NCBI GenBank assembly: GCA_946407715.1
Contig: CAMJPH010000004.1
Span: forward strand, 1 to 64,000
Source: an uncultured Bacteroidales bacterium
Lineage (GTDB): Bacteria > Bacteroidota > Bacteroidia > Bacteroidales > WCHB1-69
DNA length: 64,000 bases
Direction: 5' to 3'
The notes beneath the pieces are model-generated. The model did no database searches. It saw nothing but the letters and a program-made list of their open reading frames with translations, and was not told the DNA's origin. Within the stretch, counting starts at the first letter, position 1, and each line of letters starts with the position of its first letter. This document shows positions 3,312 to 26,549 of the stretch, piece by piece. The position numbers and the translations under genes were made by a program.

Positions 3312-3440
3312 ATGCTGAATGATGAATGCTGAATGTAGAATGTAGAATGGGAAACGTAAAACCCCAATATAAAACATCATTCCAAAAGGGCTGAAAGCCC
3401 GACCTATGTCAGCATAGGGTGAACGGAGTGAGCCCTATGA
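3312..3440. repeat. Gene-tail repeats and two palindromes
   Basis: Repeats of a gaatgctgaatgatgaatg type follow the stop codon. Two hairpins come next: GGGCT (3388-3392) with AGCCC (3396-3400), and CATAGGG (3413-3419) with CCCTATG (3433-3439). Neither has a T-tract, so they are dispersed palindromes rather than terminators. The 207-bp intergene holds no convincing gene. Confidence 0.6.
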
Positions 3441-10930: not shown

Positions 10931-11977
10931 ATGCCTGCAAACAAGAATGCTGTAACAAGGTACAAAGTGTTAGACGAATTGCTGTCCGACAAGTACCATT
11001 ACTATAACATACACGAACTGACTGAAAAGATCAATGACAGATTGGACGAATACGGATACAAGCCTGTTTCATCGCGAATGATTGAGAAAGACATCGAGTA
11101 CTTGTCTGAACGTCCGTTCTGTGCGAACATTCAAAGGTTCAGGCACGAGGGCAAACGTTGTATTAAATACGAAGACCCATCGTTTTCCATCTTTACAAAG
11201 GAGCTTTCAGAGGATGAAAAGATTCTTTTGCACGAGGTGCTTAGCACTATAGGCCAATTTGACGGGCTTGACAATTTCTACTGGCTTGACGGATTGAAGC
11301 AGCGGTTGAAAGACAGCGAGTCCAACCAGAAAAAGATAATCTTTTTCGCCAACAATCCGGACCTTGAGAACTCAAATCTATTGGGTCGGCTTTTTTCCTC
11401 TATCTCGAACAAGGTCGCACTCAAAATGATCTACAAGCCATTTGAACTTGAGAAAGAAACCTTTTTGTTCTATCCGTATGCCTTGAAACAATATAATGGA
11501 CGTTGGTTTGTCTTCGGTAGGAAAGACGAAACGGATATGATATATAATCTCGCCATCGATAGAATCCGAAAAATCGAACCGAAGCCGAATGCGGCCTACA
11601 TCGATTCGGATTTCAATCTGGAAGACCACATTTTTGATGTGGTTGGTGTCTCGATCCCCTTCGATGCTGAAATCGACGACATATTACTCTGGGTCTCGGA
11701 CAAGTCTTACAACTATGTCAGGACTAAACCATTGCATCCGACCCAAAAGGAAGTAAAGGGGACTGCCGATTTAAAACTGCGCGATAACTATCCCCAACTT
11801 AACGGAGGCCGTTTCATTAGATTGAGATGCATTGTCAACTATGAACTTAAACAAACCATAGCGTCTATGCTCGGAGAAATGATTGTGCTTGAACCTGTCA
11901 TTCTTCGTGATGAAATGGAACGATGCATTATCGCACAAAGTGAAAAATATAAAGCTATACGAAAAAAGGATGCGTAA
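10931..11977 (+). CDS. WYL-domain transcriptional regulator
   Basis: This 348-residue protein has an N-terminal winged-helix region (residues ~5-65, with RMIEKDIEYL as the recognition-helix region). A WYL domain follows (about 155-225, with ALKMIYKPFE and the NGRWFVFGRKDE / NLAIDRIRKI strands), then a C-terminal WCX-like extension. Proteins of this design (PafBC, DriD, and BrxR/CapW in defence islands) sense a nucleic-acid or nucleotide ligand; BrxR/CapW repress defence genes through palindromic operators. Four CGAA-N7-TTCG palindromes in nearby promoters, one before its own operon and one overlapping its last codons, make it the obvious candidate regulator of the retron island. Direct binding is inferred. 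Confidence 0.85.
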   Translation: MPANKNAVTRYKVLDELLSDKYHYYNIHELTEKINDRLDEYGYKPVSSRMIEKDIEYLSERPFCANIQRFRHEGKRCIKYEDPSFSIFTKELSEDEKILLHEVLSTIGQFDGLDNFYWLDGLKQRLKDSESNQKKIIFFANNPDLENSNLLGRLFSSISNKVALKMIYKPFELEKETFLFYPYALKQYNGRWFVFGRKDETDMIYNLAIDRIRKIEPKPNAAYIDSDFNLEDHIFDVVGVSIPFDAEIDDILLWVSDKSYNYVRTKPLHPTQKEVKGTADLKLRDNYPQLNGGRFIRLRCIVNYELKQTIASMLGEMIVLEPVILRDEMERCIIAQSEKYKAIRKKDA

Positions 11978-11993
11978 ATAAATCTTATTTTTG
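11960..11993 (+). promoter_or_regulatory. Palindromic operator plus -7 box of the retron (copy 3 of 4)
   Basis: CGAA-AAAAGGA-TGCG (11960-11974, one mismatch in the right arm) lies 26 nt upstream of TATTTTTG (11986-11993), followed by CGGCATCAAA. The operator overlaps the last five sense codons of the WYL gene, which may explain the mismatch. The predicted start of transcription falls at about 11999-12001, just before retron repeat a1. Confidence 0.75.
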
Positions 11994-11999
11994 CGGCAT

Positions 12000-12198
12000 C
12001 AAAACAAACGTTCTTTGAGAGTCCTTCTGAAATGGCATTTTGAAAACTGTCTGGCGTCTTGCCAGATTTCCAGGTCAAACTGGAAAAGCAATGTTAGTGC
12101 GTTATTGTTTTAAGGTGTTTGGATGTGTTTGGATGTTATTATAGTGATATATGGCATATACAAAGAAAACGAATTTCAGAAGACTCTCACGAACGTTT
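12000..12198 (+). ncRNA. Retron ncRNA (msr-msd) with a1/a2 repeats
   Basis: Repeat a1 (12006-12033) and a2 (12173-12198) are inverted complements over almost their full length: AACGTT, GAGAGT/ACTCTC and CTTCTGAAAT/ATTTCAGAAG, with small bulges. Such a pair bounding an RNA just upstream of a retron RT is the retron hallmark. After a1 comes GG at 12034-12035, the likely priming guanosine. Two msr stem-loops follow: CTGGC-GTCTT-GCCAG (12051-12065) and TTTCCAG-GTCAAA-CTGGAAA (12067-12086). The remaining ~86 nt would be the msd template. It contains a perfect tandem GTGTTTGGAT repeat (12115-12134) and only an imperfect long stem that I could pair. The exact reverse-transcribed length is not resolved. 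Confidence 0.87.
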
Positions 12199-12210
12199 TA
12201 GTATGTACAG

Positions 12211-13614
12211 ATGAATAGAGAAACTATTGCTGAAAAAGCGGAGAAAATGACGGAGAAGCAGGACCTGCTTCATTTGCTAAATGAAGTGAAGGTTGACATG
12301 CTTGGAGACAAGGCTCATCCCTTCAGTCTTCGACAGCTCTGCTATTACTGTAACCCAAGAGTTAACAGGAAAAGATACACTGATTTCGAGATCCCCAAAA
12401 AATCCGGAGGCAAGAGACGCATTTCCGCTCCAGTCAACGGCCTGAAATCTATACTTTCATGCCTGAATATCATTTTCCAAGCCATGTACGAACCCTCAGA
12501 AAATGCGATGGGGTTTGCTGTGGGGAAATCTGTCGTTGACAATGCCAAGATACATGTCGGCAAGAATTATGTGTTCAATACGGATTTGAAGGATTTCTTC
12601 CCAAGCATTCACCAAGCTCGTGTTTGGAAACGATTGCAATTGCCGCCCTTCAATTTCAATCAAAATATAGCTAACGTCATGGCTGGCCTTTGTTGTATGA
12701 AGGTAAGCAGTCCCGAAGGTGACAAGTATGTTCTTCCGCAAGGGGCACCCACTTCTCCCATAATCACAAATATGATATGCGACAAACTGGACAGGAGACT
12801 GAACGGGCTTGCGAACCGCTTTGGCCTGACATATACAAGATACGCAGACGACATTACTTTCAGTAGCATGCATAATGTTTATCAGGAGGATGGGGAGTTT
12901 ATCAAGGAACTTCGTAGAATCATAGAAGACCAGAATTTCACTATCAATGACTCCAAGACAAGGCTTCAGAGAAAGGGTTCACGACAAGAAGTGACAGGAC
13001 TGACCGTGTGTGCCGCTCCTAATGTGACAAAACAATATGTCCACAACATACGTTCTTTGCTTGCTATCTGGGAACACCATGGATATGACATTGCATACAG
13101 GCGTTTTCTTCCTCGATATATCGGAGAGAAAGGGCATGTAAAAAAAGGATCGCCGAATTTGGACAGTGTTTTGGCTGGCAAGCTTCTGTATTTGAAGATG
13201 GTCAAGGGCGCGGACAATCCGTTATATGCAAAATTGCAATGTCGTTTCGACAATTTGATTGGAACAATGAATGGCGAAATGACTTCTGACACAGAATTAC
13301 GCTTCCTATATACAATGGGGGCCAAAGAATTCGACTTCACACATTCCAAAGGAAAATTGGAGAAAATTCAGGATGGTTTCTGCTATATAGAGAATGCTGC
13401 CAGAATACCTTTCAAGATCAGCAAGCAATTGTCACAAGATGATTTAAATAATGACAATATCCAGATTTCGTATTGCGATAACGGGAAATCAAGGTTTTAC
13501 TTGGTCCACAAACCGTTCCTGCAAAAACAGCCCAAGGACGACTCTCGCAACGATGAACTGAATAAGAAACTTACTGCTTTATGCGATTCTGGTTTTGATT
13601 TAAACATTTTATAA
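12211..13614 (+). CDS. Retron reverse transcriptase
   Basis: A 467-residue reverse transcriptase that would use the upstream ncRNA as primer and template to make msDNA. Retron-specific marks are NAKIH (111-115, the NAxxH motif) in front of DLKDFFPS (125-132), LPQGAPTSP (175-183), the catalytic YADD (211-214) and VTGLTV (261-266). ATG 12211 lies 12 nt after repeat a2. The protein is about 130 residues longer than minimal retron RTs; the extension beyond ~340 shows no domain I know. The stop is 1 bp before the next start, so the RT and the HEPN-like protein are translationally linked. Group II intron and DGR RTs are excluded by NAxxH and the absence of maturase or variable repeats. Confidence 0.93.
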   Translation: MNRETIAEKAEKMTEKQDLLHLLNEVKVDMLGDKAHPFSLRQLCYYCNPRVNRKRYTDFEIPKKSGGKRRISAPVNGLKSILSCLNIIFQAMYEPSENAMGFAVGKSVVDNAKIHVGKNYVFNTDLKDFFPSIHQARVWKRLQLPPFNFNQNIANVMAGLCCMKVSSPEGDKYVLPQGAPTSPIITNMICDKLDRRLNGLANRFGLTYTRYADDITFSSMHNVYQEDGEFIKELRRIIEDQNFTINDSKTRLQRKGSRQEVTGLTVCAAPNVTKQYVHNIRSLLAIWEHHGYDIAYRRFLPRYIGEKGHVKKGSPNLDSVLAGKLLYLKMVKGADNPLYAKLQCRFDNLIGTMNGEMTSDTELRFLYTMGAKEFDFTHSKGKLEKIQDGFCYIENAARIPFKISKQLSQDDLNNDNIQISYCDNGKSRFYLVHKPFLQKQPKDDSRNDELNKKLTALCDSGFDLNIL

Positions 13615-13615
13615 G

Positions 13616-14512
13616 ATGGCTCAAGACAAAGAAAAATTAAAAAAATTGTTGGATTTCATCAAAGCATTGGCTGAAGAAGAAGGTAATGAATGGTTTGTTG
13701 ATGAATTGAAAATGAATTTTCCTTCTGTTCAGACAACGCAGGGCAATCTGGCTAACAGTATGGAGATTGAAAATCTGAACATGAGAATTTCAAGTATAGA
13801 GAAATATCTCGGCCTTGACTTCAGTACTGATACAACAGATTCCATAATTGACTATTCGAGAATAGGAGGTAAAGAGAACAGGAACAGGCTTGAAAGCGAC
13901 AATCGTGAAATGTTGCGTTGGCGATACGGAACCCGGTCACATATACAAGATTTTTATGAGTATTGCCGGTGTGCTCATCAACAAGCCGAGTTCCTATTGA
14001 ATTACTTTTATGAGAACGTCGAACAAGACTTGCAATCTTCCATACAACACATAAAGTGGTTCTTGCCAGACTATTTTACTATACGAGATACGATAAGTGA
14101 TGTCTCCGAAATACCTTACGCAAATAAACTATCGGCTTTTTACAAAGAACACCAAAACGAGCTTGGCTTTTATAACAGATCTATACTGGAGAAGACTAAT
14201 ACCACAAGAAACGAACTGTTACACAGGAGTCCTTCAAATAAAGATCTGCAAGAATGGAAGAAGTTCTTCAATACTATGAAAAATAGTGGCTTCCCGGTGT
14301 CAGAAATCTCATTTGATTTTAAGGTGTCTGAAATAAAAAAAGATGAGCAACTGTATAGGAACTTTATAATAAAATACGGTTATACGAACAAAGAATACCA
14401 GAATTATTTGTGGCATCTTTTCGTGGAAAGGAAACCGTATGGAGAAGTGTTACAGGCAGTCAAGACCCTCGCTGGGATCATACAGTCAAATGTAGTCCCT
14501 TCCGACAGGTGA
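13616..14512 (+). CDS. Retron-linked protein with HEPN-like RNase motif
   Basis: The 298-residue protein starts 1 bp after the RT stop. Residues 1-70 are charged and helical. A central alpha-helical part (about 95-215) ends in the motif R198-N-E-L-L-H203, which fits the R(N/D)x3-4H active site of HEPN ribonucleases. The helix before it (QQAEFLLNYFYENVEQ) is also HEPN-like. No membrane segment is visible. In retrons the gene beside the RT usually encodes the toxic effector held by the RT-msDNA complex, so a phage-triggered RNase is a fair inference. The assignment rests on one short motif and on context, and I do not match it to a numbered retron type. Confidence 0.7.
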   Translation: MAQDKEKLKKLLDFIKALAEEEGNEWFVDELKMNFPSVQTTQGNLANSMEIENLNMRISSIEKYLGLDFSTDTTDSIIDYSRIGGKENRNRLESDNREMLRWRYGTRSHIQDFYEYCRCAHQQAEFLLNYFYENVEQDLQSSIQHIKWFLPDYFTIRDTISDVSEIPYANKLSAFYKEHQNELGFYNRSILEKTNTTRNELLHRSPSNKDLQEWKKFFNTMKNSGFPVSEISFDFKVSEIKKDEQLYRNFIIKYGYTNKEYQNYLWHLFVERKPYGEVLQAVKTLAGIIQSNVVPSDR

Positions 14513-14700: not shown

Positions 14701-16389
14701 ATGGATGAAAAAAGAGTTATAAACAGAGATTATATTGGAGTAGTTGTTGAAGAGTGTGGACTGCTCCAATACAAAGAAATTGACATTAACTACCCTCGGG
14801 AACTTGTGGCGGAAATGACAGCTATGGAAAAGGACGAACAATCAACTATAATTGATGCACAGAGACTTTTTTGGAAATATTACCCGAAGGATAGCACTGG
14901 AGATAAAGGATTAAACTACCTATTCCCTAACAGTTATGAATCAACTTATAATGTGTGGTCACATGCTCCGAAGTTTTTCAATCAACAAGATTTCCCAATC
15001 GATAAAGTTGATGTTGGTGGCCTTATGTCAACATGTCACATTGAAGAATATCTACTATACCCCTGTGGTTTTAATACCGAGAAAGAATATGTGCAATTTC
15101 TTGAACACAGAGAGCAGTTTTTTTTCTGTGAAAATCAGATATTAACCCTTAAAGAGTTCCAAGAGCAATATGATGGAGATCCTGAAAGGTATGCTAAAGA
15201 AATAATAGAACTTGAAAAATTGGAGAATAGCGATTTCAAGTATACTATTGAAATGGAGGATCTTCGGGAAAAATTCAAGGATGAAGTTCGTAAAAGAACA
15301 GAACGAGACCTTAAACAATTGGAAAATGAAATACGATCATATTTTATCAAGGGCTGCGTTCGTTATGTCCATGCGATTTGCTATGATAGGTTAAGGGAGA
15401 ATCTCCCTAAGTCCGCTTTCATGTTTTCTACTGATAATTTGGGTTGGACTACATATAAACATCAATTATCCCAAATAGAACGCTTTGAAATCCACACGAA
15501 CTATGGTTATGGGTCAAGATCGTATGCCTATTGTAATCTTTTCTACAAAGATATACCGATACTCCCATATACAGATGTGATTAAATACTCTTCTGTCGCA
15601 TGGTTGCAAATTGTGAACTATACTCGTAGTTTTGTTCCTCAGAGAGAGGTCTGTTGGGAAAAGACGTTTGATTTTGTGATTGCGGTGTCCAATTTGATAA
15701 AAAAGAATCCCCAAAAATTTATTGACGAGTTCATTGTGGATGAGATTAGTCAGCTGTTAAAACAACTGAAAGAGATTTTAAGGAACTCCCCTAAAGAGCT
15801 AAAAGAACACTTTGAAAGATATAAAATAGAAGACAGAAGAACAACATTTGTTTGGAGTACAGGATTGGATCAAGAATCCTACAAAATTTTCCCGGAAGAA
15901 CTTGCCGATGCTGAAAAAGTCGAAAAAATTACCGGTTGTTTGTTCTTTCTTGATAATATGCGTAAATTGAATGAGTTCATTCCTGTGATACGTGTATTCA
16001 TAAACGATTTGATCGCATTGAACAATCAAATAACCCCGATGATTGACTCCTATCTGTCTAAATTGTCGGAGGAAATACAACAGAATATGGCAGAAATAGA
16101 AGATCTGGCAGAAGCTATAAAGGAGGTTAAATCGCGTATGAAAAAATGCAAAGAGGAGAATGCTCCAGATTTGATCAAGGCACTCAATCTCAAAGAGGAT
16201 CTCCTAAATGATTACTTGGAAAATCATCCTCTTATAACAGATGCTTATCAGGAATATACCATTATGAGAGAAAAGTTAAGGGAACTTGATTGCCAAAAAG
16301 AAGAGAAATCCACGCATTTGCGGTTGCGAAAGAACTTTTCAAAGAGATTTGAGGAATGTAAAGAGAGGATTAATAGACTTATGAAATAG
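14701..16389 (+). CDS. Unknown large protein, paralogue A
   Basis: A 562-residue soluble protein that I do not recognise. It shares blocks with the next gene: an N-terminal INRDYIGVV ... YPRELVA ... WKYYPK region, a central beta-rich region, KITGCLFFL at about residue 410, and a C-terminal coiled coil with KSRMK and RFEECKERI. Compared with its neighbour it has an extra charged helical insert at roughly residues 150-215. No catalytic signature, signal peptide or membrane helix is visible. Its promoter has the same palindromic operator as the retron, so it is probably induced or repressed together with it. A structural or sensor role in defence is only a guess. Confidence 0.75.
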   Translation: MDEKRVINRDYIGVVVEECGLLQYKEIDINYPRELVAEMTAMEKDEQSTIIDAQRLFWKYYPKDSTGDKGLNYLFPNSYESTYNVWSHAPKFFNQQDFPIDKVDVGGLMSTCHIEEYLLYPCGFNTEKEYVQFLEHREQFFFCENQILTLKEFQEQYDGDPERYAKEIIELEKLENSDFKYTIEMEDLREKFKDEVRKRTERDLKQLENEIRSYFIKGCVRYVHAICYDRLRENLPKSAFMFSTDNLGWTTYKHQLSQIERFEIHTNYGYGSRSYAYCNLFYKDIPILPYTDVIKYSSVAWLQIVNYTRSFVPQREVCWEKTFDFVIAVSNLIKKNPQKFIDEFIVDEISQLLKQLKEILRNSPKELKEHFERYKIEDRRTTFVWSTGLDQESYKIFPEELADAEKVEKITGCLFFLDNMRKLNEFIPVIRVFINDLIALNNQITPMIDSYLSKLSEEIQQNMAEIEDLAEAIKEVKSRMKKCKEENAPDLIKALNLKEDLLNDYLENHPLITDAYQEYTIMREKLRELDCQKEEKSTHLRLRKNFSKRFEECKERINRLMK

Positions 16390-16445
16390 TGGGATTGTAA
16401 AATAGAGTGCTGGAAAAATATAGTAACAGATTGAAACAAATAAAC

Positions 16446-17942
16446 ATGGATAATAAGCGAATAATTAACAGAGATTTTATCGGGGTGATAAAGGATGAGG
16501 GAGGTCGGTTTAAATATGACGAGGTTGAAATCCATTATCCACGAGAACTTGTGGCAGCGATTGAGGCGATGAGTAAGGATGATGATTGTACGATAATGGA
16601 TGTCCAGGGCATTTTTTTAAAGTATTACCCCAAGCAGACAATCAACGAACGTTTTTATCATTACATTTACCCATATTCGTATAGATGTTATTGTAAAAGT
16701 GTTGCTGATGCCCCCGAATTCTGTTCTTTTGATAGTTATAAACGAAGCCTCGTCAATCAGGGAGGATATTTGCTGAGAAACAATGAAACGCTTCTGGGAT
16801 TTGAATCCCAAGAAGCATATCAAAAGACTACTGCATGGCTTTGCGATGAGATGAATATTGAACCGGCGGAATGTTCTAATCTATTACGAAGAAATTTTTC
16901 CCGTAATATTATTAGGTATATATATGCGCGTAATTATCATGAAACCTTGGAATCCATCAAATCTTCGGTATTGATTTACTCCGATGAGAAGTCAGGGTGG
17001 AGGACGGTCTCTGTTGATTTCGGTGGCGGACTTTCGGTGACTATTTCAACTAATTTTTCTTTTCCGTGTAACTGGTATATTGATGTCAGAGTCTATCTAA
17101 ATAATATTGTGATATTACCTTATTTGGATTCAGTCATATACCCGAGCACTCAATGGCAGATTTTTCATAACGCAACACGCTCTTTTGAAAAAGAAGATCG
17201 AGACACATGCTGGCAAAGTATGTTTTTATTTCTGGTGGATGTCGCAAATATGTGGATAGAAAGTCCGCAACGTTTTGTTTCTAAGTATATTGTGGAAGAA
17301 ATTAAGGGAGCTGTTTCTGGTCTAGATTATATATTACAATCTTCCGATGAACAGTTGCTGGAACAATTCAAGAATTTCCCAGAAGGGAAAAAGCGGACTT
17401 CGTATGTTGGAGAAATGCTTGATTCCACTTTAATTGAGACAGAACCAGAACTGACTATGATGTTTGAAAAATCGGATAAAATTACAGGACTACTATGCTT
17501 TTTGCACTTATTTCGCCAGTTGAGTGAGTTTGACTCATCTGTCTGCCAATTCATTGACAAATTGACGGCTCTGAATGAACAGATGTCCCCTTTGATAGAG
17601 TCAAAACTTTTAGAATTGCATAAACAGATTCAATTAAACAAAATAGAATTGGATGAACTAAATAAGGCTATACGAGACGGAAAATCCAGGATAAAAGTAT
17701 ATAAGAAAGAGTATTTTCGAGAATTCGAAGAATTCTTGAATTTAACAGGAGTTGATCGAAAAAATTATCTAAGAGATGAACCACAATTTGCCGAAGTGTA
17801 TCAGAAATATAAATCTCAAAAAGAACAAATAAAAGAACTTAAGCAAGATTTGGATAATAAATCGGCTCATTTGTGTTTGCAGAAAAACTTCATGAAAAAA
17901 TTTGAGGAATGTCAGAAAAGAATTGTGACGTACTTGACATAA
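16446..17942 (+). CDS. Unknown large protein, paralogue B
   Basis: A 498-residue diverged tandem copy of the preceding gene. The shared blocks are INRDFIGVI, YPRELVA, LKYYPK, KITGLLCFL, KSRIK and KFEECQKRI. The C-terminal ~130 residues are a Lys/Glu-rich coiled coil. I chose ATG 16446 (MDNKRIINRD), because it aligns exactly with the N-terminus of paralogue A; the longer frame begins at a non-ATG codon. The gap of 56 bp has no -7 box, so the pair is probably one operon. The function is unknown. Two divergent copies side by side suggest a hetero-oligomer or diversification under phage pressure. Confidence 0.75.
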   Translation: MDNKRIINRDFIGVIKDEGGRFKYDEVEIHYPRELVAAIEAMSKDDDCTIMDVQGIFLKYYPKQTINERFYHYIYPYSYRCYCKSVADAPEFCSFDSYKRSLVNQGGYLLRNNETLLGFESQEAYQKTTAWLCDEMNIEPAECSNLLRRNFSRNIIRYIYARNYHETLESIKSSVLIYSDEKSGWRTVSVDFGGGLSVTISTNFSFPCNWYIDVRVYLNNIVILPYLDSVIYPSTQWQIFHNATRSFEKEDRDTCWQSMFLFLVDVANMWIESPQRFVSKYIVEEIKGAVSGLDYILQSSDEQLLEQFKNFPEGKKRTSYVGEMLDSTLIETEPELTMMFEKSDKITGLLCFLHLFRQLSEFDSSVCQFIDKLTALNEQMSPLIESKLLELHKQIQLNKIELDELNKAIRDGKSRIKVYKKEYFREFEEFLNLTGVDRKNYLRDEPQFAEVYQKYKSQKEQIKELKQDLDNKSAHLCLQKNFMKKFEECQKRIVTYLT

Positions 17943-25619: not shown

Positions 25620-26549
25620 TTATGCTTTCCAAACTGGCAACTCCTCCCATTCATCAGGAAAACCCATCTCTTTGGTTGTTAGAAGTTTGTGCTGATCCTT
25701 TAGCAATTCTTCCAATTTCATTTTGAACGAATTTCCGGGACTGATAATGTCCACGATATACTTGATTGCAGAGAGCAGGGCAAAAATCTTGTTTTGCTTT
25801 ATCGTTTTTGCACTAGCTCGTGTAAGAAAGGGATATGATGTGTTGTAGGGCAATTTCAGGTGTACAACAAAGCGTCTGTTCCAAACCCGGCTGTGATGAG
25901 CGCAGCAGTTGCGTAAATTGGAGAAGGCGTGGAGCCAATTCGCAAAAACATCTTCGTCACCAATGCCAAAAGACCTTGCAATTTGTCTCTTTAAGGGAGT
26001 CTTGTCAAGTGTCTTGTACAGTCTGCTCAATGTTCCGAAAGAAACAACTTCCAAGGACATCCATGACGGTGGCATGGCTGGAGTGTCGTATTTGGTTTTG
26101 TAGTGCTTAATGAAATCCTCATTGCTGCGGTTCACATCGTCTGACACATCACTCATAAGGTGCGAAAAGGTGTTAGGGCTTGAATTCACAAACCATTTTC
26201 CATCCAAATACCAAAACGGATCGTGACTTTGAACGGAATAGATCAAAGACAACTGTGTGCGAACGGCTATTTCAATCTTCTCCAATTCATTGAAAACCAA
26301 ATTTCTCAAGCGACGGTCAAAAATGTATAAATCAACAATGTCGCCGAAATCGATGTTGTTTCGGAGAAATTTGTGGTCAGCAGACGGATCTATGTTGTTC
26401 TGAAAAGGGTAAGTGAATGCTCGCAGGCGATAGTAGCTGATATTCCGTAAATAGCATTTGGCTTGTTCTCGGTTGGTGATATTTAACCCTCTTTGTTCAA
26501 GCCGGTCAATCTGTTCGTCAATGGTCAGCGGTCTTTTGGTGTATTTCAT
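25620..26549 (-). CDS. Abi_2 family abortive-infection protein
   Basis: The 309-residue protein matches the Abi_2 (AbiD/AbiF-like) family. The N-terminus TIDEQIDRLEQRGL and YLRNISYYRLRAF is typical, as is the central IYIFDRRLRNLV-type helix (here LYIFDRRLRNLV). The C-terminal half carries R213-N-C-C-A-H218, the RNxxxH motif of HEPN ribonucleases, followed by NRRF. Family members stop phage by abortive infection; toxin-like RNase activity is inferred. It is a single-gene system here, with its own promoter and unrelated metabolic genes on both sides. Base composition is more AT-rich than nadA next to it, which fits acquisition. Confidence 0.88.
   Translation of the reverse strand: MKYTKRPLTIDEQIDRLEQRGLNITNREQAKCYLRNISYYRLRAFTYPFQNNIDPSADHKFLRNNIDFGDIVDLYIFDRRLRNLVFNELEKIEIAVRTQLSLIYSVQSHDPFWYLDGKWFVNSSPNTFSHLMSDVSDDVNRSNEDFIKHYKTKYDTPAMPPSWMSLEVVSFGTLSRLYKTLDKTPLKRQIARSFGIGDEDVFANWLHAFSNLRNCCAHHSRVWNRRFVVHLKLPYNTSYPFLTRASAKTIKQNKIFALLSAIKYIVDIISPGNSFKMKLEELLKDQHKLLTTKEMGFPDEWEELPVWKA

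Follow-up and report, generated by a model that had tools for sequence, protein, structure and literature searches.

Organization of the locus

The window analysed here, a 64,000-nt stretch at the start of contig CAMJPH010000004.1 of an uncultured Bacteroidales bacterium, contains a retron in which a reverse transcriptase (RT) gene is preceded by a structured RNA and followed by a gene for a HEPN-like protein; all coordinates are window positions, and these elements lie on the forward strand. The RNA is bounded by the terminal repeat arms a1 (12006–12033) and a2 (12173–12198). The RT gene (12211–13614, 467 aa) starts 12 nt past a2, and the partner gene (13616–14512, 298 aa) starts 1 bp past the RT stop. 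On the same strand, a gene for a WYL-domain regulator-like protein (10931–11977, 348 aa) ends 28 bp 5' of a1; it was recognized by Pfam (WYL, with an expected value (E) of 5.9e-8, and a sub-threshold WCX match) and by PADLOC (WYL, E 1.4e-17), and is possibly a regulator or third component of the retron unit. A preliminary description of this DNA, made from the sequence alone, had listed the a1/a2 repeat, two msr hairpins, the spacing of RT and partner, the RT motifs NAxxH, YADD and VTG, a -7-like box and an RNxxxH motif in the partner, and all of these are present. Related loci are designated L001 and so on, and two compared genomes G001 and G002.

The non-coding RNA

An msr-msd-like RNA bounded by a1 and a2, as is characteristic of retrons, lies just upstream of the RT gene. 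When positions 12000–12204 were folded, a1 paired with a2 over 25 bp (8+8+9), interrupted by small bulges, and equivalent arms occur at related loci. The fold energy was -67.1 kcal/mol against a mean of -41.5 kcal/mol for shuffled sequences (z = -6.63), and none of 200 shuffles was as good; chance pairing of the repeat was rejected. The fold also contains msr hairpin 1 (stem at about 12049–12067) and msr hairpin 2 (stem at about 12068–12085), and a candidate msd (template) region, with putative limits at 12090 and 12172, was placed from the fold and a conserved element. This element, ACAAAGAAAA (12160–12169), adjoins a2 within the candidate msd, and CATTTTGAA (12036–12044), immediately inside a1, is conserved in the set A4 (17 sequences); the conserved elements among relatives read (C)ATTTTGAA inside a1 and AAAGAAAA 5' of a2. 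The G at 12042, within TTTTGAA, is at least 90% conserved in A4 and is a candidate branch nucleotide. A TAnnTTTG box (TATTTTTG, 11986–11993), which we take to be a promoter element of the Bacteroidota -7 type, lies 5' of a1, and 15 of 23 loci have an exact TAnnTTTG 9–31 nt 5' of the repeat (a raw count, without chance control).

Of 23 loci, a set that leaves aside L001, whose sequence is almost that of the window, and L009, which lies at a contig end, 20 have a repeat upstream of the RT that outscores every one of 20 shuffles; the repeat sequences differ among loci. The repeats of L018 and L019 fell 0.5 and 0.2 kcal/mol short of beating their shuffles, and that of L026, where the RT start had been misplaced, beats them with the start at M41 but not at M24. 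An upstream inverted repeat was also found at L022, where the RT is fused to its partner (-28.1 versus -23.1 for the best shuffle), but at L077, which has a HisKin-conflict partner, the repeat was no better than shuffles (-22.3 versus -27.1). In the RNAs of nine loci of class B (defined below), 17 of 42 pairs had two-sided changes; none of 500 shuffles reached 17 and slid versions of the structure gave 1–6, although these sequences had themselves served to derive the structure, and 21 of 500 shuffles matched one of five measures. Helices 3 and 4 of class B, which correspond in place to msr hairpins 1 and 2, had two-sided changes at 2 of 6 and 6 of 10 pairs, respectively. Searching Rfam at the RNA gave no retron match at the gathering threshold, and otherwise only a chance match to a human long non-coding RNA family (E 0.91).

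The reverse transcriptase and retron typing

Three RT motifs, NAxxH (N111 and H115), YADD (residues 211–214) and VTG (261–263), are invariant across 48 aligned sequences, consisting of the window sequence together with 47 taken from a list of 120 homologues. In agreement with its initial assignment, the RT falls among retron RTs both by profile ranking and in a tree, from which L005 (broken RT frame) and L070 (found after the tree was made) are absent; a group II intron or diversity-generating retroelement RT was rejected, 14 retron entries ranking above both. At its C-terminus the RT has an additional alpha/beta domain (residues about 360–467), which has few conserved columns in the alignment.

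The best PADLOC RT profiles were those of types XI (351 bits), XII (323 bits) and I-C (289 bits). In these types (RT-protease, RT-TIR and RT-Toprim, the last represented by Eco2/Ec67) the effector is fused to the RT, whereas in the window the HEPN protein is separate and Pfam detected only RVT_1 in the RT. The XI and I-C matches stop at residues 353–360 and cover only about three fifths to two thirds of the profile; the XI profile (506 positions) was matched at 22–329 only, without its fused protease. The XII matches in PADLOC extend to residues 404–411, corresponding to profile position 386 of 475, but the NCBIfam TIR-retron model scored 282 bits against a cut-off of 600 (positions 14–317 of 464), and the Ec67-fusion model, with its fused Toprim, 258 bits against a cut-off of 450. 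A real I-C RT found in this analysis matched the PADLOC profile end to end, at 526 bits. The RT_IX profile ranked 24th of 76 families (168 bits), placing the window RT outside type IX by profile, the tree holding no IX sequence. In 247 Bacteroidota genomes, three matches to the type XI profile reached E <= 1e-100, all confined to the RT part, so that the tree holds no true XI or XII reference. The window RT was found to group with no numbered type tested, namely I-C, XIII and I-A by tree and IX, XI and XII by profile only. Judged by the features that can be tested from sequence, the locus is a retron that does not belong to types XI, XII or I-C, nor, by its RT, to type IX. The earlier suggestion that the subtype may be new or poorly described finds support within the reach of PADLOC, NCBIfam and the open-access literature; searches of the latter listed no RT-HEPN retron of this kind beyond type IX.

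The HEPN-like partner and its association with the RT

In an alignment of 41 partner sequences (the window sequence and 40 of 67 other homologues), R198, N199 and H203 are invariant; they belong to RNELLH (residues 198–203, 14207–14224), which has the R-x4-H form of the HEPN motif. The HEPN-like nature first proposed from this motif was borne out by the predicted model: HEPN proteins are the structures that it matches best, with middling Z, and HEPN folds top the re-aligned structural list. A PDB sequence search with the protein or its profile gave no match, and no PADLOC model covers it. The partner is likely a HEPN-like, RNA-cutting killer protein outside the coverage of PADLOC. It shares the R-x4-H motif and fold similarity with HepT/MntA and other HEPN toxins, but no MntA-like gene was found among the scanned window neighbours, and the proposed silencer is instead the complex of RT and multicopy single-stranded DNA (msDNA). 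Among viral contigs, 42 pattern matches to the HEPN family were obtained, none of which was confirmed, and the family was not found in plasmids; for the phage collection, the query was the RT alone.

When GTDB genomes were scanned for the partner family, 19 loci were found, all in Bacteroidota, many from ruminant gut, plus one Flavobacterium and one Mariniflexile. The RT lies directly upstream of the partner in all 19 (split into two frames in L005), and a WYL homologue is within the fetched stretch in 14, with no WYL match in the other five, one of which is cut off by a contig end. A partner search of 393 genomes from the order of the nearest genome, probably Bacteroidales, gave five loci, one being the contig of L001 itself; the other four also have an RT, and two of them match the partner only in or near its N-terminal module. 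L022 (positions 505–2163) encodes a single 552-aa protein, a distant relative in which a retron-like RT is followed by a HEPN-like region with RNDESHR. The 19/19 co-occurrence and this natural fusion show that the RT-HEPN pairing is real.

The RT search of the same 393 genomes gave 33 matches in 32 genomes. The 15 best loci comprised 6 with HEPN-like partners (one fused, and five in genomes already met in the HEPN-first search), 6 with histidine-kinase-like HisKin-conflict (PF22561) partners (3 separate, 3 fused) and 3 of other kinds (a 468-aa protein without assignment, an RT of 605 aa and a broken RT frame). Overall, HisKin-conflict partners beside RTs of the same kind were found as separate proteins at L055, L069, L077 and L080, and as fusions at L073, L079 and L081. 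A small gene, receiver-like by eye, often accompanies the HisKin loci; Pfam detected nothing in the one scanned (L055).

Matching of RT tails and effector N-terminal modules

The C-terminal tail of the window RT (residues 445–467, 13543–13611) ends in FDLNIL, and the effector begins with a helical module (residues 1–36, 13616–13723) common to otherwise differing partner bodies; these are the two predicted halves of a docking pair. We compared the last RT residues with the first partner residues at 25 loci, assigning classes by eye. Class A (8 loci) has RT tails ending FDL(S/N)xL with modules like M(A/G)QxK..LxKLLxFI..NxWF. Class A' (5 loci) has tail ends like G(L/F/I)(D/N)xAM with modules like K.SLxKLLxLI, similar to those of class A, and class B (11 loci) has tails near DELNxxLDxLL with modules like MDEK...KIxxLAxQNxEF. 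Tail type equals module type in 24 of the 25 loci, L011 being ambiguous and fitting neither well. Similarity does not cleanly separate A from A', the robust split being A plus A' versus B; in L024 and L026 the modules are nearest to class A (L023 and the window) and the tails to those of A'.

In similarity matrices for 24 loci, leaving aside L005 (broken RT frame) and the HisKin loci, tails and modules correlated with r = 0.82. After removal of body and RT-domain similarity, the partial Mantel r was 0.76, a value reached by none of 5000 permutations, the highest of which was 0.34. L023 and L070 share one body type (similarity 0.38), L023 with a class A tail and module and L070 with a class B tail and module; in L021, a class B tail and module occur with an unrelated body. 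The R[ND]x2-3H motif is retained in the differing effector bodies. That tail and module types match even where one HEPN body bears different modules suggests that the RT tail and effector module form a swappable docking pair.

Genomic setting

Between about 9.35 and 17.6 kb, pieces of 400 bp share 99–100% identity with genome G001, while in the flanks (6 to 24.8 kb) 21 of 24 alignable pieces are below 98% identity (range 82–99%); a unit of two small open reading frames, the WYL gene, the retron and a paralogous gene pair has probably been exchanged horizontally in recent times. In G002, from the same genus, the threonine synthase gene is present, but none of the genes of the block lies in the 11 kb beyond it. 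The paralogous genes are adjacent (14701–16389 and 16407–17942; 562 and 511 aa, 33% identical), and a relative adjoins the WYL gene in L017. At other retrons (L003, L011, L013, L014, L016 and L018), the neighbour is a large protein (833–1010 aa) that is alike by eye; scans gave sub-threshold beta-propeller hints for L018 and a sub-threshold EMP24 match for L016. TOTE-conflict domains occur beside L004 and L006. Elsewhere in the window, an Acido-Lenti-1 RNA match lies at 3387–3439 on the reverse strand (37.8 bits versus a gathering score of 37), and a 309-aa protein with an RNxxxH-like stretch, presumably of the Abi_2/AbiD-F family, is encoded at 25620–26549 on the reverse strand and is another possible defence gene.

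Proposed mechanism and alternative explanations

In retron-Kva2 (type IX), the RT-msDNA complex is reported to sequester a dimer of the HEPN protein that, once released, cleaves tRNA and arrests growth (PMC13405049). By this analogy, abortive infection by a released HEPN RNase is the likeliest mechanism, and the retron is probably an anti-phage suicide system. We consider it quite probable that the locus is a complete chromosomal retron of gut-type Bacteroidota, whose HEPN RNase is silenced in an RT-msDNA complex and, when released by phage, stops growth. The RNA, starting near the -7 box, would be folded by a1 and a2; the RT would copy the msd part and remain bound to the msDNA. The HEPN protein, predicted to be a dimeric RNase that needs no metal and uses R198 and H203, would be kept silent in this complex, docked at least partly through contact of its N-terminal module with the RT tail. 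If a phage interfered with the msDNA or RT, the RNase would be freed and would cut cellular RNA, most likely tRNA as with Kva2, so that growth stops before phage release.

The closest systems differ in arrangement. Type IX likewise has a HEPN effector, so that HEPN retrons are already known, but its operon is given as HEPN, winged-helix, ncRNA and RT (PMC13405049), whereas the order in the window is RNA, RT and HEPN; its RT belongs to another profile family. AbiA combines an RT with a fused HEPN_AbiA_CTD in one defence protein, comparable to the L022 fusion, but it is described as making untemplated DNA that is bonded to its RT (PMC8934634), in contrast to the a1/a2 RNA and retron-type RT of the window.

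It is unlikely that the locus is a diverged member of a numbered type, either IX with its HEPN effector or XI, XII or I-C. WYL-type proteins usually have an N-terminal winged helix, and although no winged-helix gene lies among the RNA, RT and HEPN genes of the window, the WYL gene just upstream of the RNA may be the counterpart of the type IX protein. The best-scoring RT profiles are also those of XI, XII and I-C, but these matches are partial and miss the NCBIfam cut-offs, RT_IX ranks far down the list, and the type IX HEPN, as reported (PMC13405049), lacks the canonical R-phi-xxxH, in contrast to the invariant RNxxxH found here. We regard as quite improbable that the HEPN protein is an RNA-binding or structural subunit and that the RT C-terminal domain or another gene provides the effector. 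HEPN folds can be non-catalytic, and the C-terminal domain is uncharacterised; this domain, however, is poorly conserved, whereas R-N-x3-H is invariant in the partner sequences and the motif persists in differing bodies.

For the matching of tails and modules, our tentative proposal, to which we give somewhat less than an even chance, is that this undescribed Bacteroidota retron type is a plug-in platform, in which matched tails and modules dock, the killer (at least 4 HEPN-like bodies) is exchanged behind the module, and the same RT clade, with related tails, also serves HisKin-conflict partners. It is a serious possibility, in our view almost as probable, that the matching reflects linkage only, with recombination breakpoints just downstream of the module and no protein contact. 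In favour of linkage, tail and module are DNA neighbours (22 pairs have gaps of -11 to +37 bp), and the tails of HisKin-partnered RTs, xWExx(G/S)IxxA, resemble A' though the partner starts differ, so that the tail/module code is not strict. The permutation test, moreover, assumes exchangeable loci and includes no tree. Linkage alone, however, would not conserve the module as a unit on unrelated effector bodies, and body swaps that retain the module suggest that the RT needs it.

What appears to be new here, from sequence comparison, is that RT tail type tracks effector N-module type across retron loci. The findings extend the libraries checked by a family of HEPN effectors and a group of HisKin-conflict partners. 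If the docking proposal is true, a travelling tail/module pair would open to direct test the way in which retron RTs hold and release many unrelated effectors, and would help to recognise an effector from roughly its first 36 residues.

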